From positions 1-64,000 of the forward strand of contig CP070666.1 in the NCBI GenBank assembly GCA_020351775.1: a DNA stretch of 64,000 nt, read 5' to 3'. The stretch's first letter is position 1, and each line of letters begins with the position of its first letter. Below the pieces are notes generated by a model. That model did not search any database, was not told where the DNA came from, and saw only the letters and a program-made list of their open reading frames with translations. Shown in pieces: positions 45,657 to 59,856 of the stretch. Made by a program: the position numbers and the translations under genes. This DNA is from Gemmatimonadota bacterium (GTDB lineage Bacteria; Gemmatimonadota; Gemmatimonadetes; Gemmatimonadales; GWC2-71-9).

Positions 45657-47492
45657 CTACCGTCCCAGCACCTCGAGTGCGCGTTCGACTTGGCCGGATG
45701 ACCCAGTCATCTGGATTCCTTGAATCGCATCACCGATCTCCTGCATTACCTCACGTGCGATTTCGATGCCTTCAGCGGCTGCGGCCTCATCACTGGTATC
45801 ATTGGCTTTTCGCATCCGCCTCAGAACAGATTCCGGGACGACCACTCCGGGTACCTCGTTAGCCAGGAATTCAGCGTTACGTAGCGATCGTAGCGGCCAG
45901 ATCCCGGCGATTATCGGTATTCCGAACTCCCCGGTGCGCTTGAGGAAACCCTGAAACTGTCGGGGATCGAAGACCGGCTGGGTGACGGCGAACTCCGCCC
46001 CCGCATCAACCTTCCAGTAGAACCGCTTCAGTTCCCGGTCGAGATCGGCTGCACTGTGATTCACTGCGACGCCGATCACGTAGGGCGTGGCGTTGCCGAC
46101 CGTATTGCCACCGGGGTCGAGGCCGTGGTTCAGGTGGTAGACCACATTCGTGAGGCCGATGCTGTCAATGTCGAACACACCGGTGAATTCATAGGTTCCC
46201 ATCCTCGGAGGGTCGCCCGTCACTATCAGCAGGTTGCGCAGCCCGGCGGCTGCCGCACCGAGCAGATCGCTAATCATACCCAACATGTTGCGATCGCGGC
46301 ACGTGTAGTGCACTACGGTCTCAATCCCCACCTCTCGCTCGACGATGATCGCCGACGCAAGCGCACCCATGCGACTCTGCGATAGGGGCGCATCGAGAAT
46401 GTTGACGGCGTCCACGCCTGCGATCTTGAGGGTGCGACATTTCTCCAGCATCTCTGCTGTCTGCCAGCCTCGGGGTGGAAGTATCTCAACACTCTGAACG
46501 AACTCCCGTGCCGCGATCTTGCGGCCCCAGCGGGACCGTTTCTCCAGCGGCACAGGATCGAGTCCTTTCGTGGGCGCAATTGCCTCTCGCGACACGTATA
46601 CGGTCGGCTTGCGCGGTCGTGCCGCGGCGACGAATTCGGCGATTCTTTCGGTGTGCTCGGGTGTAGTGCCACAACATCCTCCAACGAATGACACACCGGC
46701 GTCTACCATCCTCCGGGCATAGCGCGCCATGTACTCCGGGGCAGCGAGATAGATCTTGCGGTTGCCGACGTCTCGCGGGAGGCCCGCATTGGGTAGTGCG
46801 GAAATCGGGAGGTTGGTGACCTGCACCAAGCGCTCAATGGCGTCGAGCATCGCGGCGGGGCCGACGGAGCAGTTCAATCCGACGACGTCAGCACCCCATT
46901 CGGTGATCGCCTGCGCGGCAGTTTCTACGCTGGTGCCGTAAGATGTGGTGCCGTCCTCTCCAAACGACATCTGGGCGATGATTGGGAGGTCGGTCGCTTT
47001 GCGAACAGCCCGATAGGCGGCATGGAGTTCATCCAGATCTGCGAACGTTTCCAGGATGAATCCGTCCACCTCTCCGTCGAGCAGACCCCTGACCTGGCGC
47101 TGGAAGAACTCGGCCGCTTCATCCCGGGACGTGGGTCCCCATGGTTCGATGCGGATGCCGAGAGGGCCAATGGCACCGACTACGCAGGCTCGCCCGCTCG
47201 CAGCACGGCGAGCAATCTCGGCTGCGGCTCGATTCACCTCCTCTGTCTTTGTGTCGAGATTGAATGCGGACAGCTTGACCGGGTTTGCACCGAACGTGTT
47301 GGTCTCCAGGATTTCGGCGCCAGCCCGCACGTAACGCTCGTGGACCTCATAGACCAAGTCGCTGTCGGTGAGATTCAACTCGTCGTAGCAAACGTTCACG
47401 AACACACCTTTGCTGTACAGCATGGTGCCCATGGCCCCATCGATGACGTGCACGTGGCCGTCCGCGATCAAGTCTTTCAGTCTGGCGGTCAT
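45657..47492 (-). CDS. Bifunctional homocysteine S-methyltransferase / methylenetetrahydrofolate reductase (YitJ type)
   Basis: Protein of 611 residues. The N-terminal half (1-290) is a cobalamin-type homocysteine-binding barrel with zinc Cys residues in VGLNCSVGP (about 205) and [13 protein letters not shown]. The C-terminal half (about 310-600) is an MTHFR barrel with [48 protein letters not shown]-like loops and [14 protein letters not shown]. Such fusions can supply methyl-THF and a methyltransferase unit to MetH. It overlaps the metH stop by 4 bp and ends 5 bp from the convergent MTHFR-like gene. Confidence 0.9.
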
Positions 47493-50400
47493 GACATCGC
47501 CACTGGACAGGGGTCGTAGCCCAGATTGGGAGCGAGCCAGCGCTCGATGTCCTTCACGTCCATACCCTTTCTGTCGGCGTAGCTCTGCACCTGATCGGCG
47601 TCGATCTTACCGACGCCGAAGTAGAGAGACTGCGGATGTGAGTAGTACCAGCCGCACACCGAAGCGCTAGGATTCATGGCGCAGCTCTCCGTCAACGAGA
47701 TGCCCGTGTTCTCGTTGACGTCCAGTAGGTCGAACAATGTGCGCTTCTCGCTGTGATCGGGGCACGCCGGATAGCCGGGCGCAGGCCTTATGCCAGCGTA
47801 CTCCTCGCGGATGAGCTGCTCGTTAGTCAACGTCTCGTGCGGTGCGAATCCCCAGAATTCGGTTCTCACACTCTTGTGTAGCGCCTCCGCGAGAGCTTCA
47901 GCTAGTCTATCGGATAGCGCCTTGGCCATGATGCTGTGATAGTCATCGTCATCCCGCAGGAACCTGGCGCAGAGTTCCTCGACGCCGATGCCTGCGGTGA
48001 CCGCGAAAGCACCTATGTAGTCGTCGACTCCTGACTCCTTCGGTGCAATGAAGTCAGTGAGGCAGAAGTTTGGCCGGCCTGCAGGTTTCTGCTGTTGCTG
48101 GCGTAGGTTGTGCAGGATCGTTCGAACCTCACGACGGCTGTCGTCCGTGTAGACCTCCAGATCATCAACATGGACTGCGTTGGCAGGGAACAGACCGACG
48201 ACTGCATGGGCGGTGAGCAACTGGTCAGCGATGATCTGCTCCAGCAGTGACGTGGCGTCGGCGTGCAGGGTCTTTGCCTCGCTGCCCACGACAGGATCAT
48301 CCAAGATCCCAGGATAGAGCCCCCGCAGCTCCCATGTCTTGAAGAAGGGAGACCAGTCTATGTACTGGACCAAATCAGCCAACGGATAGTCCCTGATCGT
48401 GTGGATGCCGACCATACGCGGTGGTGGCGGTTGATACGCGCTCCAGTCTAGGTCCACCTTGCGTCTTCGTGCTTCTTCGAGTGGCAGGAGTCGTTTTTCG
48501 GCACTGCGTGAATCGTGAGATTGACGGAGCTTGCGATACTCATCACGTACCGCACTGGAGAACGCGGTCCGTTGTGATGGGTTCAGCAACTGGCTCACCA
48601 CGCCCACGCTGCGGGATGCGTCGGGGACGTGCACCGTCGAGCCGCCGTACTGCTGCTCAATCTTCACTGCGGTGTGGGTCCTTGAAGTGGTTGCCCCGCC
48701 GATCAGCAGAGGGATATCGAAACCTGCACGTTCCATCTCTCGCGCGACGTTCACCATCTCGTCGAGCGATGGGGTGATGAGGCCGCTCAAGCCGATGATG
48801 TCCGCCCGCTCGCGGCGAGCCGTTTCCAAGATCTTGGCTGCCGGCACCATCACGCCGAGGTCGATCACCTCGTAGTTATTGCACGCCAGCACGACAGCGA
48901 CGATGTTCTTGCCAATGTCGTGTACGTCTCCTTTCACTGTGGCGAGCACCAACTTTCCATTGGGCTTCTGGGCCGCACCACTCTCAGACTGCTCTCGCTC
49001 AATATGAGGGACGAGGTAGGCAACCGCCTTCTTCATGACCCGGGCGCTCTTGACCACCTGTGGTAGGAACATCTTGCCGCTGCCAAACAGGTCGCCTACG
49101 ACATTCATGCCGTCCATCAGAGGACCTTCGATGACGGTCATGGGCCGGCCGAGCTTGATGCGTGCCTCCTCGACGTCCTCCTCGATATGATCGAGGATTC
49201 CCTCGACCAAGGCGTGACAGAGCCGCTGCTCCACGCCGAGCGCGCGCCATTCCGGATCCCGGGATACTGCCGGTTCTGCGCTTTGGACCCTGGACGCTAG
49301 GTCCGTGAGCCGTTCGGTTGCGTCTGGACGGCGGTCGAAAAGCACATCCTCCACCGCAGTCATTAGTTCTGTGGCAATGTCATCGTACACTGCCAGCTGC
49401 CCGGCATTGACTATTCCCATATCCATGCCAGCCTGCACTGCGTGGTATAGAAAGGCCGCGTGCATTGCCTGACGGACAGCTTCGTTGCCGCGGAATGAGA
49501 ACGAAAGATTGCTCACACCACCGCTCACGAGACTGAGCGGCAGGGTTTCTTTTATTATGCGGCAAGCATCGATGTAGTTGAGAGCATAGCGGTTGTGCTC
49601 TGGGATTCCAGTGGCCACGGCGAAGATGTTGGGGTCGAAGATGATGTCCTGTGGCGGGAAGCCCACCTGCTCTGTGAGGATGCGGTAGGCCCGCTTCGAG
49701 ATCTCGACCTTCTTCCCGACGGTGTCAGCCTGCCCTTCCTCATCAAATGCCATGACGATCACCGCTGCGCCATAGTAGCGAGCCTGTCGCGCGTGCTCTA
49801 TGAACTGTGCCTCACCTTCCTTGAGGCTGAGCGAGTTAACGACCCCCTTTCCCTGAATGCACTTCAAGCCGGCCTCGATCACATCCCACTTTGAGGAATC
49901 GATCACGATGGGGACCTTGCAGATGTCGGGCTCAGCTGCAACGAGGTTCAAGAACTTCACCATTGCTGTGCGGGAGTCGAGGAGACCCTCGTCCATGTTC
50001 ACATCTATCATCTGAGCGCCGCTGGCAACTTGTTGTCGTGCTACATTGAGCGCCGATTCGTAGTTGTCTTCCTGGATCAGCTTCGCGAACCGACGAGAAC
50101 CTGTCACATTTGTGCGCTCTCCAATGTTGACGAACAGGCTATCAGGTCGAATCACCAAGGGCTCCAGTCCGCTCAACCGTGTGTGTGGCTCTACAGCAGG
50201 CACCTTGCGAGGCTCAAGGTTCTCAACCGCGGCCGCAATTGCCTCTATGTGCGCTGGGGTCGTGCCGCAGCAGCCACCCACCATGTTGACGAGACCGCTG
50301 CGGGCGAACTCACCGATGATATCCGCCATTTCATCCGGCGTCTCGTCATATTGCCCAAACTCATTTGGCAGGCCGGCGTTGGGATGGCAGGAGACGAACG

Positions 50401-51208
50401 TGTCGCATAGTCTGGACATCTCTGCCAGATAAGGGCGTAATTCGCTCGCCCCGAGCGCGCAGTTGAGTCCGATCGTGAATGGCTGAATGTGGCTCACCGA
50501 GTACCAGAACGCCTCCGCCGTCTGACCCGACAGGGTCCTACCACTCGCATCAGTAATGGTGCCGGACACGCTTACTGGCAGGCAGACACCGAGTTCATTC
50601 ATGACTTGGCGAATGGCATACAACGCGGCCTTACAGTTGAGCGTGTCGAACACTGTCTCGACCATCAGCAGGTCGACACCCCCCTCGATCAGCGCTGCGG
50701 CCTGCTCGGCGTAGGCGGCAGCCAATTGGTCGAAGGTGATGTTGCGGAAGCCGGGATCGTTCACATCGGGCGACATCGAGACGGTTCGGTTGGTCGGCCC
50801 GATGCTGCCAGCAACGAAACGAGGCTTGGCTGGCTCGCGGGATGTGAACTCGTCTGCCACCTCACGTGCAATCCCAGCTGCAGCAAGGTTCATGTCGCGC
50901 ACTGCGGATTCGGCGGCATAGTCAGCCTGTGAGATGGCCGAGGCGCTGAATGAATTGGTCTCGACTATGTCGGCACCGGCTTCGAAAAAAGCACGGTGGA
51001 TTGCCGCTACTATGTCGGGTCGCGTCAGCGACAGGAGATCGTTGTTGCCCCGTAGCGGCAGCGAGTGATTGACGAACCGCTCGCCCCGGAAATCCGCCTC
51101 CTCCAGCTCGTGCCGCTGGATCATGGTCCCCATGGCGCCGTCCAGAACGAGGATTCGCTGCTGGAGCGCGTCCCGGAGCAGGTACGTGCGGTCACTTAGA
51201 GGAGTCAT
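47489..51208 (-). CDS. metH: Cobalamin-dependent methionine synthase
   Basis: Full-length MetH, 1239 residues. In order: homocysteine/zinc domain with [20 protein letters not shown] (about 300-325), pterin-binding domain starting [18 protein letters not shown] (about 360), helical cap, B12-binding domain with the base-off motif DVHDIG (D761-H763-G766) and the [12 protein letters not shown] loop, and the AdoMet activation domain near the C-terminus ([20 protein letters not shown]). All catalytic parts are present. The ATG has no clear ribosome binding site, and the leader holds a terminator-like structure, so expression is probably controlled there. It transfers the methyl group from methyl-THF to homocysteine. 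Confidence 0.97.
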
Positions 51209-53724: not shown

Positions 53725-53877
53725 CTACTTCGTTGGCCTTTCCGTGCGAGTACCAGTGGCTATCCGGATCATGAAAGAATCTTAACCAAAACCGACGATA
53801 GCGGTTTGCTGAGGAAATACTACCATAGTAGCAGAATCGGCCTAGGAGAAGCCGGCCCACTCTGCTGGGAGGCAGAC

Positions 53878-54387
53878 ATGACTGAGAGAGCCAAGCTGGT
53901 CTTAGCCGGAGGGTTGGTCTCGGGACTCATTGGATACGCGACAGTCGTCGCGCTCGTTGGTGCGTTCAACTTGGTGATGGGCCGCTCGCTGTTTCACACT
54001 GCGGCTCTGTTCGGATCGGCCATGTTCTACGGACTTGAGGACCCTGCCGCTCTCCAGATCGAGGCCGGACCGGTTCTGGCTTTCAACATGCTGCACGTCC
54101 TCACCTTCTTGGCCGCGGGCATGCTTGCCTCATGGCTGGTAGCGTTGGCCGAGCGTTTCCCAGCTGCACAATACTTCATCCTCGTGGTTCTCATCTTTGT
54201 GGCATTTCACGTCTTCGCCGCCCTGTTGCTGTTTGCTACCCCGCTGTTGGGCAACGGAGCGTGGCTGATCGTCGGGATCTCCGGAGTGGTCGCTGCAGCG
54301 CTGATGGGATGGTACCTGCTCACGATACACCCGCTACTACGCCAGGAGCTCAAGGAAATACCCATGGGGGCAGTTCCGACTGAATAG
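53878..54387 (+). CDS. Small multipass membrane protein of unknown function
   Basis: Protein of 169 residues; the ATG at 53878 is chosen over a frame start 24 codons upstream that adds a non-hydrophobic stretch. Four hydrophobic helices (about 8-30, 58-80, 95-115, 120-140) and a short charged tail. I do not recognise it. It is 29 bp before the HDAC-like gene and may be co-transcribed with it. Confidence 0.72.
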   Translation: MTERAKLVLAGGLVSGLIGYATVVALVGAFNLVMGRSLFHTAALFGSAMFYGLEDPAALQIEAGPVLAFNMLHVLTFLAAGMLASWLVALAERFPAAQYFILVVLIFVAFHVFAALLLFATPLLGNGAWLIVGISGVVAAALMGWYLLTIHPLLRQELKEIPMGAVPTE

Positions 54388-54416: not shown

Positions 54417-56231
54417 TTGATCAAGCTCGGCGGCGGCGCTCTGAGGCTGCTGCGGCGACTACGATATTCACTTCGCGGTCGTGTGGCGCTGCTCGTGTAC
54501 CACCGAGCCTATGAGCTACCGGTAGCCGGAGTGCCGCTCGACCCGTTGCGGGGACAGCGTATCCTGGCTTACCTGACCGACCAAGGCGTGGTGAGGCCGA
54601 AGCGGGTGATTGTTCCCCTCCCCGCATCGCTTGAGAACATCTCCCGGGTGCACTCGGCTGAGTACCTGGAGCGCGCGGACCGACCGGAAACCATGGAGGC
54701 CGTACTCGGATTCCGGACCAGTGATGAGACATGGCAGCAATTCATCGACCTGCAGCGGCTAGCTACCGGTGGCACGATACAGGCAACTCGTCTGGCACTT
54801 CGTACTGGTTGCACCACGGTGAACGTTGGAGGTGGTTTCCATCACGCGGATCCCGATCACGGAATGGGATTCTGTATCATCAACGATGTTGCGGTGGCCA
54901 TCAACCGACTCCGGCACAGAGGATTCGCAGAGCCGATCCTGGTGATAGACCTGGACATTCATGATGGCAACGGCACCCGTGTAGTCTTCGCTGAAGATCC
55001 CACGGTCTACACGTTTTCTATACACAACGAAACGTGGGACGACAGGGCTGCCGTGGCAGACTCATGCATCGCATTGGGCTCCGACGTATCGGGGGAGGAA
55101 TACCTGGCCGCGCTCAAAGAGGAGCTACCGCGGGTGATTTCCCTCCACAAGCCAGCACTGGTGTTGTACGTAGCCGGCGTCGACCCCGCGGCTGACGATC
55201 CAGTAGGCAACTGGCAGGTTAGCAGTGAGTGTCTCTTGCAGCGCGATCAGTTCGTGTTTCAGCAGATACGTTCCAAGGCGTCCGGCTGTGCAACTGCGGT
55301 CCTGCTGGGTGGTGGCTATGGTGACAACGCTTGGCGACATTCGGCAGGATTCCTTGATTGGCTGTTCACCGGCCGTGAACAGGTGCCGGTTGAGGATGTG
55401 GACGCCATCATCCGGCGGTTTAGGCGTATCGAGACTGAGCGACGCACGCAGAGGCGAAGTGAGCGCAGAGTGGGTGCCGACTGGGAACTGGACGCAGAGG
55501 ATCTGCAACTGCCAGGCATGACCGGCCGCGGGGATGCACGCGTGCTTGGTGAGTACACCAAACATGGCATCGAACTGCAGCTCGAACGGCTCGGGATTCT
55601 CAACCAGCTTCGTGCCAAGGGCTTCCCGGCCCCGACGCTCACAGTAGACACGCACACGTCCATGGGTCAGACCATACGTGTCTTCGGCGACGTGGAAAGG
55701 ACGGAGCTCGTGCTGGAGCTGCGGGTGCGCCGTGACCGGGCCTCGGTGCCGGACGCCGAGTTGCTCTATGTGGATTGGCTGTTGCTGCAGAACCCGCGAG
55801 GCGAGTTCAAGGAGCGACCTCGGCTACCCGGTCAGGAGCATCCGGGCCTGGGGCTCTTGCGTGAGATCGTGGCGCTGCTAGTGGTCATCTGCGAACAACT
55901 CGGTCTGGACGGCATCATTTTCGTGCCATCCCACTATTACATGGCGGCTCTTGGTCGTCCGCACCTGCGGTTTCTCCGCTGCGCGGACGCTGCGGTGTTC
56001 GCGGCCATGAGCGACGCGCTCGCCGATCTCGATCTCGCCGCCGCAACGCAGGCTATCGCAGATGATCGGCTGGTGGATGTCAAGACCGGCGAGCCAATCC
56101 CGTGGCACACCCCTCAAATGATTCTCCCAGTCAGCAAGAAGCTAAAGGAGCGGTTTGATCAGGCGAGTTCGGAACAGGCGTTCTTGCGTGCCCGCGCGGC
56201 GCTGTCGTATGAACTCAGGCTCGCGACTTGA
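54417..56231 (+). CDS. Histone-deacetylase-fold enzyme with large C-terminal extension
   Basis: Protein of 604 residues, TTG start behind GGGAGGAA. The first ~330 residues form a class I/II HDAC/AcuC-type domain with catalytic and zinc residues present: GGGFHHADPDHGMGF (tandem His about 142), DLDIHDGNGT (Asp/His about 178), AGVDPAADDPVGN (zinc Asp) and GGGYGDNAW (Tyr about 299). Residues about 330-604 (starting at a charged linker) are not part of the known fold. They include YVDWLLLQNPRGEFKERPRL and an LGLLREIVALLVVICEQLGL segment that faintly resembles an acyltransferase, but this is not secure. The 3' end overlaps kgd by 17 bp, convergently. Confidence 0.88.
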   Translation: MIKLGGGALRLLRRLRYSLRGRVALLVYHRAYELPVAGVPLDPLRGQRILAYLTDQGVVRPKRVIVPLPASLENISRVHSAEYLERADRPETMEAVLGFRTSDETWQQFIDLQRLATGGTIQATRLALRTGCTTVNVGGGFHHADPDHGMGFCIINDVAVAINRLRHRGFAEPILVIDLDIHDGNGTRVVFAEDPTVYTFSIHNETWDDRAAVADSCIALGSDVSGEEYLAALKEELPRVISLHKPALVLYVAGVDPAADDPVGNWQVSSECLLQRDQFVFQQIRSKASGCATAVLLGGGYGDNAWRHSAGFLDWLFTGREQVPVEDVDAIIRRFRRIETERRTQRRSERRVGADWELDAEDLQLPGMTGRGDARVLGEYTKHGIELQLERLGILNQLRAKGFPAPTLTVDTHTSMGQTIRVFGDVERTELVLELRVRRDRASVPDAELLYVDWLLLQNPRGEFKERPRLPGQEHPGLGLLREIVALLVVICEQLGLDGIIFVPSHYYMAALGRPHLRFLRCADAAVFAAMSDALADLDLAAATQAIADDRLVDVKTGEPIPWHTPQMILPVSKKLKERFDQASSEQAFLRARAALSYELRLAT

Positions 56232-59200
56232 TCTTCTGCATCGGGCTCAACACATCGGCCACCAACCGCGCTTGTCTGGCGAGGTGCTTGTTCAGGTATC
56301 CCTCGGCAGGCGCCGAGCGTTCGGGCCGCGCCACATAGCGCAACGACACCCACTCAGGTATGAGCTCCGCCAGTTGGGGAACGACCCATTTTCGTGCACC
56401 CATGTTGACGGGTTCTTCTTGGAGCCATACGATCTCACGCACATTGGGGTAGAGGCCGATGAGCCGGATGACTGCGTCCTCAGGGAAAGGATAGAGGAGC
56501 TCGATTCTGGCAATGGCGACGTGGTTGGCGGACGGCCGGTCAGAGGCTGTAATCGCATCGTAGTAGATCTTGCCCGAGCAGAAGACGATTCTCAATACCG
56601 TTTCACGGGGCCCCGGCAGCGAGATATCATCCATTACATATCGGAACTGCCCCTGGGTCAGGTCTGCGACTTGAGAGACCGTGTGCGGATGTCGCAACAG
56701 GCTCTTGGGAGCCATGAGGAACAGGGGCCGCAGCTGCATGTGCTTGGCCTGGCGCCGTAGCAGGTGGAAGTATTGCGCCGGGGTTGAGCAATTGGCCACC
56801 CTTATGTTGCCCTCGGCTCCCAGTGCCAGGTAACGCTCCAAGCGTGCACTTGAGTGTTCGGGTCCCTGTCCTTCATAGCCGTGGGGCAGCAACAACACCA
56901 AGCGGGATGTTTCCCCCCATTTCGCCAGCCCCCCGATGACGAACTGGTCGATGATGACCTCGGCGCTGTTGGCGAAGTCGCCGAACTGCGCCTCCCACAT
57001 CACCAGAGTCTCGGGTGCAGCGACACTGTATCCGTATTCGAATCCCAGAGCCCCGTACTCGGAGAGGGGCGTGTTGTGCAACTCGATCGGGGCTGTAGCC
57101 TTTGCGAGGCTCTTAAGCGGTGTGTACTTCGATCCGGTCTTAGCATCGTGGAGAACTAGATGTCGCTGACTGAAAGTGCCGCGTTCCGTGTCCTGGCCTA
57201 CCATCCGGAGCGGTATTCCGTCCACCAGGAGTGTGCCAAGCGCCAACGCTTCGGCGTGGGCCCAATCTATAGGACCTCCGTCCTCGAAGACCTTGCGTCG
57301 GCGATCGAGAAAACGCTGCAATTTGCGGTTTACAGTGAAGCCATCCGGCGTCTCAATCAACCGCGTATTCACATCATGCAGAGTCTCCAGGGATACTCTG
57401 GTGTCGGGTTCCGCAACGGCGGTCCACTCCGCGGAAGGGCGTAACGAGTTCACACCCGAGTCCGCGTCCGTTCGCGTCTTCACACGGGAGTGTGCGTCAC
57501 TCAATTCTCGGAACGCCTGCTCGGTATCCCGTTCTACCTCCTCTGCCGAGACTACGCCCTCGGCTATCAAAACCCGCGCGTACACGTCCTTGACCGGGGG
57601 ATGTACGTCAATGCGAGCGTACATCATCGGCTGCGTGTACCTTGGCTCATCTCCCTCGTTGTGCCCGTAGCGACGATATCCCACGAGATGGATCAGGCTG
57701 TCTTTGGCGAACCGATCGCGGTACATCATCGCCAGTCGCGCTGCTGCCAAGCATGCGTCCGGATCATCGGCATTCACATGTACGATGGGAACGTCGAAGC
57801 CCTTGGCTAGATCACTGGCAAAATCTGTCGATCTAGCCTCGCAGGGATCCGTAGTGAACCCGATCTGATTGTTGGTGATGACGTGGAGCGTCCCACCTGT
57901 GTTGTATCCTTCGAGACAGGCCAAATTGAAGGTCTCAGCAACGACGCCTTGAGCTGCGAAAGCCGCGTCGCCATGCATCAGGATAGGCAGCACGCGCCTC
58001 GGATCGTGCCTGATCCGCTCGCCGGAGCGGTCGGTCTGGGATGCCCTTACGTGTCCCTCTACCACGGGATTCACGGCTTCCAGATGACTAGGATTGGGCA
58101 TGAGAATCACGTCAACTGTCTGGCCGTAGAGGCACTCGAACACACCATTGGCGCCGTAGTGGTATTTGACATCGCCCGTGCTACGGCCTGCCGCCAGCGT
58201 GTCGTGTGTCTCGTGCCCGCCCTCGAACTCTGCGAGCAGAGATTCGTAGGGCACCCCCAGTATGTGAGTGAGAACGTTGAGCCTGCCGCGGTGCGCCATT
58301 CCCATCACCACCTCACGCACACCCTGTTCGGCTGCCAGGTCGATCGCCGTTTCCAGCACTGGGACCAACATCTCGAGACCTTCGATGCCGAACCGCTTCT
58401 GTCCCAAATAGGTACGGTGCAGGAACTCTTCGAGCGCCGTCACCTTGGTGAGCGTGGTCAGTGTGCGTAGCTTGCGGTCGCTCGTGAGCAAGCGCCGGTG
58501 TACACCCGATTCGATGAGCTGCCTGAGCCAGACCCGCTCTTTATGGTCTGCGATATGTTCGATCTCGTAGGCGATGGTGCCGCAGTACATCTCCTGAAGC
58601 TGCGGCAGGACATCGGCCATGGTCTCCCCCTCAACGTAGACTCCCAGCACCGCTGCCGGGATCTGCCGCATGATCTGCGGTGTCAGTCCGACTGACTTGG
58701 GATGGAGCGCGGGATCCCCGATTGGCTCTGTCCCAAGCGGATCCAACCTGGCGTCCAGGTACCCGTGGGTACGGTACGCGCTCACGAGAGACATGGCAGA
58801 AGCGACGTGCGTCAGCAGACCCCCAGCCGTACTGCTGACCGTGGCGATGTCTCTAGCGGGGGCAGGAGGCGTTGGTTCGGCCGCACGCGGCGCTCCCTCG
58901 ACCCGCACTCCCATTTCCCTCGCAATATCGTCGTAGAAGCCCTCCTCTCCCTGCAACAGCAGGTCGATCTGTCTCAAGAACAGCCCAGACTCGGCACCCT
59001 GAATGATCCGGTGATCGTACGTGCTCGTGACTGTCATCCGTCTCGTCCCGGATACGGTCTGGATTGCGCCAGTCGCGATGATCGAACCTTGTCCTGTCAT
59101 GAGTCGTGGTACTGAAGCCACGGTGCCGATTGTACCCGGGTTTGTGAGCGTGACACTCGCGCCCATATAGGCATCCGGCATGAGCCTGCCGTCCCGTGCC

Positions 59201-59856
59201 CCCACGACCAGGCGTTCGTACTCGTCGTAGAATTGTCGGAAGGTCATTTGGTCGGCATGCTTGACCACAGGGACCAACAGCTTTCGGCGGCCGTCCTTAC
59301 CCTCGGTGTCGACTGCAAGACCCAGATCGACCGAATACCGCTCGACTCGGTGAGGCGAGCCATCACGATCCAGCACGGCAAACCCCATGACTGGGTATTG
59401 CCTCATAGCACGTACAATCGCCCAGCCGATGATGTGGGTGAACGAGAGCTTGATCCCCTGAGACTGGAGCGATTCGTTGAGTGCTCTGCGCACGTCCCAC
59501 AAGCGGCTCACCTCGAGATCGCGAAACGAAGTCGCCGTGGGGATCGTCAGGCTAGCCTCCATGTTTTGCAGCAGACGGAGAGCAGGACCATCGATTGGCC
59601 CTGTCATATCAGACGGCGGGCGGGCAGATGCGGCCGGGTGGGAAATGGACTCCACACCAGGCTCTGGTTCCTCGGGTTTCCCTTGTTCTGCTGCGGCTCC
59701 TTCGACAACGGTTTCAACCACGGGCTGCTCTCCGGTGAGGCCATTGTCGAACAACTCCCTCCACTCATCGGGTACGGAGGACGGATCTCTCAGGTAATCC
59801 TCATATAGTGCCTGTGCGAACCCTGAGTTGACGGTCTCGAAGACGTTCTCAAACAT
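56215..59856 (-). CDS. kgd: Fused 2-oxoglutarate dehydrogenase E2-E1 (kgd-type, multifunctional)
   Basis: Protein of 1213 residues in the TCA cycle. The N-terminus (FENVFETVNSGFAQALYEDY) is the E1 lead segment. An E2 acyltransferase domain follows at about 90-320, with YDHRIIQGAESG (about 285) as the active-site His motif. The thiamine-diphosphate E1 part covers the rest (for example MGMAHRGRLNVLTHILGVPY, IVHVNADDPDACLAAARLAM and VMDDISLPGPRETVLRIVFC). No lipoyl domain is present, as in mycobacterial Kgd, so it must work with another lipoylated subunit or act as a decarboxylase/carboligase. The gene is transcribed toward the HDAC-like gene. Confidence 0.95.
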   Translation of the reverse strand: MFENVFETVNSGFAQALYEDYLRDPSSVPDEWRELFDNGLTGEQPVVETVVEGAAAEQGKPEEPEPGVESISHPAASARPPSDMTGPIDGPALRLLQNMEASLTIPTATSFRDLEVSRLWDVRRALNESLQSQGIKLSFTHIIGWAIVRAMRQYPVMGFAVLDRDGSPHRVERYSVDLGLAVDTEGKDGRRKLLVPVVKHADQMTFRQFYDEYERLVVGARDGRLMPDAYMGASVTLTNPGTIGTVASVPRLMTGQGSIIATGAIQTVSGTRRMTVTSTYDHRIIQGAESGLFLRQIDLLLQGEEGFYDDIAREMGVRVEGAPRAAEPTPPAPARDIATVSSTAGGLLTHVASAMSLVSAYRTHGYLDARLDPLGTEPIGDPALHPKSVGLTPQIMRQIPAAVLGVYVEGETMADVLPQLQEMYCGTIAYEIEHIADHKERVWLRQLIESGVHRRLLTSDRKLRTLTTLTKVTALEEFLHRTYLGQKRFGIEGLEMLVPVLETAIDLAAEQGVREVVMGMAHRGRLNVLTHILGVPYESLLAEFEGGHETHDTLAAGRSTGDVKYHYGANGVFECLYGQTVDVILMPNPSHLEAVNPVVEGHVRASQTDRSGERIRHDPRRVLPILMHGDAAFAAQGVVAETFNLACLEGYNTGGTLHVITNNQIGFTTDPCEARSTDFASDLAKGFDVPIVHVNADDPDACLAAARLAMMYRDRFAKDSLIHLVGYRRYGHNEGDEPRYTQPMMYARIDVHPPVKDVYARVLIAEGVVSAEEVERDTEQAFRELSDAHSRVKTRTDADSGVNSLRPSAEWTAVAEPDTRVSLETLHDVNTRLIETPDGFTVNRKLQRFLDRRRKVFEDGGPIDWAHAEALALGTLLVDGIPLRMVGQDTERGTFSQRHLVLHDAKTGSKYTPLKSLAKATAPIELHNTPLSEYGALGFEYGYSVAAPETLVMWEAQFGDFANSAEVIIDQFVIGGLAKWGETSRLVLLLPHGYEGQGPEHSSARLERYLALGAEGNIRVANCSTPAQYFHLLRRQAKHMQLRPLFLMAPKSLLRHPHTVSQVADLTQGQFRYVMDDISLPGPRETVLRIVFCSGKIYYDAITASDRPSANHVAIARIELLYPFPEDAVIRLIGLYPNVREIVWLQEEPVNMGARKWVVPQLAELIPEWVSLRYVARPERSAPAEGYLNKHLARQARLVADVLSPMQKIKSRA

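Follow-up and report, generated by a model that had tools for sequence, protein, structure and literature searches.

A class IV HDAC-type deacylase joined to a predicted GNAT-fold domain: a candidate single-chain writer–eraser of acylation

In bacteria, the acyltransferases and deacylases that set lysine acylation are usually separate, and their pairing has to be found by genetics; a fused pair would reveal its own partner, so that target and direction of control could be tested with one protein. Whether such a fusion exists is the question raised by a gene in the first 64,000 nucleotides of contig CP070666.1 of a Gemmatimonadota bacterium (this whole stretch is hereafter called the window), which encodes an HDAC-fold deacylase with a long C-terminal extension. 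An earlier note on this DNA had likened a segment of the extension to the acetyl-CoA loop of GNAT enzymes and had proposed that lysine deacylation and acylation may be joined in one chain. We suggest that the protein may be a writer–eraser (that is, acyl-CoA-dependent acylation and deacylation in one two-domain protein), a reading that we regard as evenly balanced between right and wrong and for which we infer acyl-CoA binding, transferase activity, a shared target and the acyl chain length. If true, acyl-CoA level and hydrolysis would be balanced within one molecule.

The gene and its deacylase half

The fusion gene (Table 1) is a genuine gene, with GGAGG approximately 11 nt 5' of its start codon, a copy number of one in its own genome (5.5 Mb, single contig) and same-genus orthologues whose products are 66–68% identical to that of the window. 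Over 74 relatives, the median identity to the window protein is 49.8% in the HDAC part, 46.9% in residues 372–580 and 21.6% in the linker (residues 321–371); as the extension is nearly as conserved as the HDAC part and the linker far less so, the extension is not chance coding. The full-length AlphaFold2 model has a pLDDT of 88.4. That the second half carries no known domain, as had been stated from the sequence, holds in Pfam, which covers residues 40–309 only (PF00850, E 4.6e-51, 174.4 bits versus a curated cut-off of 27.9), and in NCBIfam, which gives no match to the whole protein.

Table 1 Features of the fusion gene and its convergent neighbour, in window positions
Feature	Positions	Strand	Remarks
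Whole gene, HDAC-fold deacylase and GNAT-fold domain (predicted)	54417..56231	+	604 aa, TTG start
HDAC domain, aa 25-320	54489..55376	+	Class IV (HDAC11-like) branch; Pfam, PDB sequence matches, VIA-align, tree, catalytic residues intact
Variable linker, aa 321-371	55377..55529	+	Partly low pLDDT: aa 353-371 below 50
GNAT-fold domain (predicted), aa 372-580	55530..56156	+	AlphaFold2 model, fold searches, conservation
beta4 motif WLLLQNP, aa 454-460	55776..55796	+	W454 and Q458 kept in 75/75; acidic residue 453 precedes
LPGQEHPGLG, aa 470-479	55824..55853	+	Loop before alpha3, at the position of the acyl-CoA P-loop
Tyr508 on alpha4	55938..55940	+	Candidate general acid
C-terminal tail, aa 581-604	56157..56228	+	Overlaps end of kgd-type gene
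Convergent kgd-type gene	56215..59856	-	Pfam: 2-oxoacid_dh acyltransferase and E1 domains; neighbour, judged outside the system

The earlier note's statement that the deacetylase domain retains its catalytic residues is borne out by H142, H143, D178, D180, H182, D256 and Y301, which are identical in all 75 aligned fused proteins and which include, with roles named after HDAC8 and HDLP, the tandem histidines (H142 and H143), the zinc-binding residues (D180, H182 and D256) and the catalytic tyrosine (Y301). Of a further 19 fused rows that are more divergent, 18 also retain all seven. Because the catalytic residues are invariant to this extent, the deacylase half is most likely active. The nineteenth row (L197), with an apparent loss of HDAC residues, was dropped as uninterpretable, its N-terminal part being misframed through ambiguous bases.

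The HDAC half belongs to the class IV (HDAC11-like) branch. Its top matches among PDB sequences are class IV (9rje, E 2.4e-39; 9gz5, E 2.3e-37), followed by double-domain HDAC6 entries (3.5e-33) and the class IV HdaH of Vibrio cholerae (8.4e-33), with single-domain class I and II chains further down the list at approximately 1e-18; 9RJE and 9RJD are described, in excerpts of PMC13325672, as the class IV HDAC11 homologues of Chlamydomonas reinhardtii and Leptospira interrogans deposited by that study. Superposed on the L. interrogans HDAC11 structure 9gz5, the full-length model gives a VIA-align Z of 40.1 over 292 residues. In a 64-row HDAC tree, in which two class IV references are named and other HDAC classes are unlabelled, the 16 fused rows group in a single clade (100/92) and, together with the split HDACs described below and the two references, share a 100/100 branch that excludes 36 other HDAC rows. 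Another HDAC of the window's own genome (G000:C1:3239142-3239977, outside the window) lies in two frames, covering profile positions 1–79 and 80–298, and looks frameshifted or broken.

Predicted fold and conserved cleft of the C-terminal half

The C-terminal half folds, in an AlphaFold2 model built on an 81-row alignment (pLDDT 88.3), as two helices, four strands, a helix, a strand and a helix, an order that matches alpha1-alpha2-beta2-beta3-beta4-alpha3-beta5-alpha4 of the GNATs. Searched against the PDB with Foldseek, the model has one match below E 0.001 (the KKT23 acetyltransferase, 7.5e-4), and 50 of the 50 matches listed are GNAT-fold proteins, including Naa40, Naa50, Naa10, the ICL2 C-terminal domain, and FeeM and tRNA-acetylating toxins, the last two of which are also GNAT folds. 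The 50 matches listed by VIA-align are likewise all GNAT-fold proteins, with modest Z values (SpNatD, Z 9.3, 138 aligned residues, 3.1 Å; Dehalococcoides mccartyi Elp3, Z 7.8, 106 aligned, 19% identity; ICL2, Z 7.6), and values below 8 can, according to the tool, reflect merely a common arrangement. We consider the uniformity of the two lists a better argument than the Z values themselves. Matches in a viral structure library were weak (none below E 0.001), and its named rows, mostly acetyltransferases, were not used as evidence.

Sequence comparison gives no corresponding signal. Neither a single sequence nor the 81-row profile of the domain found a GNAT among PDB sequences, and Pfam recognized no GNAT family in 81 fused C termini. 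The 81-row alignment and a deeper one were compared by hhalign with 27 local GNAT domains, with three Elp3 KAT sequences and with both sets combined; probabilities stayed below 1% and were no better than those of 40 control families (six control families in a second run). Kinship with GNATs, if any, would thus be too old for detection by sequence, and as these routes are null, the GNAT assignment is drawn from predicted structure, loop position and conservation; we file the domain as GNAT-fold, and not as a proven GNAT enzyme.

Could the GNAT likeness be a coincidence of prediction, the true fold being an unrelated alpha/beta type with another activity? Z values of 7 to 9 are middling by the standard of the tool, Foldseek TM-scores on the query span only 0.24–0.35 and the profile comparison is null, all of which fit that reading; yet every match listed in the two rankings is GNAT-fold, the order of elements is that of a GNAT and the conserved glycine loop is correctly placed, and we therefore consider coincidence very improbable. 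In predicted fold and loop position the earlier GNAT guess is supported; its sequence side is weakened by the null profiles and by a broken P-loop consensus. An unrelated fold, which would have spoken against the guess, was not among the matches listed, though some of these (the ICL2 C-terminal domain) are non-enzymatic.

The segment LPGQEHPGLG sits in the model between beta4 and alpha3, which is the site of the acyl-CoA loop of GNATs, and no other part of the domain is as conserved: in the fused proteins P476, G477 and L478 are kept in 75/75 and G479 in 74/75 (Ala once). The GNAT P-loop consensus given in excerpts of PMC4964394, which also list active enzymes with atypical loops, is Gln/Arg-x-x-Gly-x-Gly/Ala; the strict form is not kept in the window protein (E-H-P-G-L-G), and only 28 of the 75 fused proteins have Gln or Arg at position one of the consensus, whereas the Gly-x-Gly/Ala part is present in all 75. 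Other near-invariant residues are Q473, G499 and A510, besides the two of the beta4 motif. Position 453 is Glu in 68/75 (Asp in the window, Asn or His in some divergent members), and position 508 is mainly His (61/75) or Tyr (11/75), with Tyr in the window. In the predicted structure the invariant residues gather at beta4, the loop, beta5 and alpha4, that is, at the active site of a GNAT. Given that Glu is a common general base and Tyr a common general acid in GNATs (excerpts of PMC4964394), E/D453 and H/Y508 are candidates for such a pair.

This distribution bears on a further alternative, in which the domain is a pseudo-GNAT scaffold that binds neither acyl-CoA nor acceptor and serves substrate recognition or oligomerization. 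It has a precedent in human O-GlcNAcase, a hydrolase fused to a pseudo-acetyltransferase domain argued to be inactive (excerpts of PMC3814719), and it would agree with a P-loop of which the strict form is lost. However, conservation is highest at the cleft rather than on a distant surface and is maintained in solitary proteins, so that we hold the scaffold to be rather improbable.

Fused, split and solitary forms and their neighbours

A single-sequence search found the domain in 19 of 101 relatives and, across the phylum, in 21 of 395 genomes; a profile search found it in 17 of 298 (one of them marginal, with two stops). In plasmids, tblastn with the C-terminal domain gave no match. The best 80 of 326 candidate stretches, in named genomes, come from Gemmatimonadota (25), Acidobacteriota, Myxococcota (four Nannocystis species among them) and one member of Krumholzibacteriia, and 79 of these 80 loci have HDAC sequence in the same open reading frame, in a sample biased towards the fused form because the stretches were found with patterns from fused proteins. 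In the remaining locus (L056:8922-10834) the HDAC part and the GNAT-like part are read from different, overlapping frames of the same strand, probably because of a frameshift or an error in sequencing. The fusion is present in exactly one copy in each of ten genomes checked.

In two further phyla, profile searches around an Acidobacteriota genome and around Nannocystis detected the domain in 34 of 247 genomes and in 77 of 188, respectively, and 25 of the 35 rows of the former lie in open frames of fewer than 450 codons. From such short frames we picked 20 loci by hand (13 from these 25 Acidobacteriota-search rows and 7 from the Nannocystis search), all 20 of which hold a stand-alone domain; ten of the solitary proteins were tested and had no Pfam match (below E 0.01) and no NCBIfam match. 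In three loci (L201, L202 and L203) an HDAC gene (PF00850) lies directly upstream on the same strand, overlapping the GNAT-like gene in L201 and separated from it by 3 bp in L202 and L203, and each of these HDACs carries all seven catalytic residues. The same-strand run around one of them (L202:7638-14790) comprises genes for thiolase, S41 peptidase, acyl-CoA dehydrogenase, MeaB, CoaE, HDAC and the GNAT-like protein. The domain tree unites the 40 fused rows in a single clade (92/90), with the split rows outside it among the solitary ones, and the HDAC tree likewise places the split HDACs outside the fused clade; as both trees agree in this, the fusion arose once in the sampled sequences. Because the pairing with a class IV HDAC also occurs in unfused form, it provides evidence for joint function that is independent of the fusion.

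The solitary proteins also help to weigh the possibility that the GNAT-fold domain is an acyl-CoA sensor (that is, that it binds acyl-CoA without transfer and switches the attached deacylase on or off, in the manner of ICL2). The ICL2 C-terminal domain is indeed among the structural matches (Foldseek rows 7 and 13, besides the VIA-align match), and an atypical P-loop and a null sequence profile would suit a domain that gave up catalysis. Against this, 17 of the 20 short-frame relatives have no HDAC beside them and keep the same residues (W454, Q473, P476, G477 and H508, the last as His, in 20/20), and a solitary sensor would need a partner in trans. We consider the sensor unlikely, if the strongest of the alternatives; the conservation in solitary proteins favours a function of the domain's own, and hence a writer, over a mere appendage.

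In seven of the 20 solitary loci (L205–L211) homologues of rsmD, prfA and prmC occur within approximately 3 kb of the GNAT-like gene and share its strand (Pfam names from L205, L207 and L211), a setting that hints at a link to translation and perhaps at a target in the ribosome or among release factors.

In the window itself the neighbouring gene is kgd-type, and its 17-bp convergent overlap with the fusion gene, reported earlier, is exact. From this overlap had come the speculative proposal that the protein removes and attaches succinyl groups supplied as succinyl-CoA by the kgd product. A convergent downstream kgd does recur in 12 of the 25 Gemmatimonadota loci, but at distances that vary from an overlap (−10 bp) to more than 2,000 bp, and the 55 other loci have no kgd within reach; moreover, the class IV enzymes assayed in PMC13325672 leave succinyl and glutaryl groups in place, as far as excerpts of that paper go. 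We rejected the succinyl link on these two grounds, lineage-limited synteny and assays, and regard its probability as close to negligible.

Other neighbours differ between lineages. Loci of the Thermoanaerobaculia type have an SDR gene (11 loci) and a FAD_binding_4 gene (12 loci) 3' of the fusion on the same strand, the pair of SDR and FAD_binding_4 oxidase occurring in L043, L053, L063, L066, L074, L076, L078, L082, L087, L088 and L092 and resembling a DprE1/DprE2-like pair, and in Nannocystis-type loci a hydantoinase/oxoprolinase gene is near the fusion. As the neighbours vary by lineage, we infer no pathway from them. Elsewhere in the window, a membrane-protein-like open reading frame without a Pfam match (53806-54387) lies 29 bp upstream of the fusion on the same strand, and a few close Gemmatimonadota loci (L032, L071 and L037) contain homologues of it; a metH-type gene stands beside a homocysteine S-methyltransferase/MTHFR fusion gene (45657-51208, both on the minus strand).

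Proposed mechanism and comparison with known systems

In the writer–eraser that we propose, the N-terminal class IV HDAC domain would hydrolyse acyl-amides, most likely short- to medium-chain acyl-lysine; basal class IV homologues, those of Acidobacteriia included, favour short chains from acetyl to octanoyl (excerpts of PMC13325672). The C-terminal domain would hold acyl-CoA above the PGQxxPGLG loop, in the cleft between beta4 and beta5, and would most likely pass the acyl group to an amine, with E/D453 on beta4 and H/Y508 on alpha4 as the putative catalytic pair. The two halves, whether fused or, in another lineage, encoded by neighbouring genes, would then adjust the acylation of a common target or targets to the supply of acyl-CoA, in the manner of AcuA and AcuC in Bacillus. 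Of the earlier proposal of deacylation and acylation in one chain, this retains what the HDAC residues and the predicted GNAT fold support, while the strict P-loop and the profiles, and the non-enzymatic proteins among the structural matches, speak against it. More specifically, we put forward, as a tentative view held with somewhat less than even confidence, that a class IV HDAC and an unnamed family of GNAT-fold acyltransferases (W-x3-Q ... PGQxxPGL ... Y-H-x-A) together make up a single-chain writer–eraser that occurs in fused, split-operon and solitary form in several phyla.

If the second half is active, both halves of a reversible acylation switch would be present in one molecule, and the unnamed family, which cultured Nannocystis species carry as a fusion and other genomes as a free-standing protein, would form a new branch among GNAT-fold proteins, marked by an unusual conserved loop. 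A search of the full text of open PMC papers, with word searches within PMC11532494 and PMC13325672, gave no account of a protein in which HDAC and GNAT are fused; such architectures may stand unremarked in databases.

Among known proteins, the class IV HDACs (HDAC11; liHDAC11/B, 9gz5/9RJD; C. reinhardtii, 9RJE; V. cholerae HdaH, 9gkv/9gky) resemble the N-terminal domain in sequence, structure, catalytic residues and side of the tree, but comprise approximately 300–320 residues without a second domain. The acetyltransferases NatD/Naa40, Naa50 and KKT23 share the C-terminal fold and are the best structural matches, yet they are only 8–12% identical to the window domain, which has an atypical P-loop and no profile relation to them. 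The KAT domain of Elp3 (D. mccartyi 5l7l and 6ia6) also shares the fold, with 19–21% identity over 104–106 residues; in it, as in the window domain, beta4 bears an acidic residue and is separated from the P-loop by a long loop. In Elp3 this loop blocks acetyl-CoA, and an acidic residue, E386, lies in the acetyl-CoA pocket (excerpts of PMC6367351). Unlike Elp3, however, the window protein has a deacylase partner and no Pfam match to a radical SAM domain, hhalign gives no relation between the two, and its own genome has no match to ELP3 (TIGR01211).

By fold and architecture the window protein can also be likened to Mycobacterium tuberculosis ICL2, in which a GNAT-fold domain without recognizable GNAT sequence follows a metabolic enzyme; the ICL2 domain differs in being allosteric, described as an acetyl-CoA domain without sequence homology to GNATs in excerpts of PMC6788997. 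Since GNAT folds that are not transferases exist, as in ICL2 and human O-GlcNAcase, transferase activity should not simply be assumed. A likeness in terms of proposed function is offered by AcuA, a GNAT, and AcuC, an HDAC, of the Bacillus acu operon, an acyltransferase/deacylase pair according to excerpts of PMC13121692 and PMC11255334: in both cases an acyltransferase (here putative) would be paired with an HDAC-type deacylase, the two being encoded by separate genes in Bacillus and by one gene in the window.
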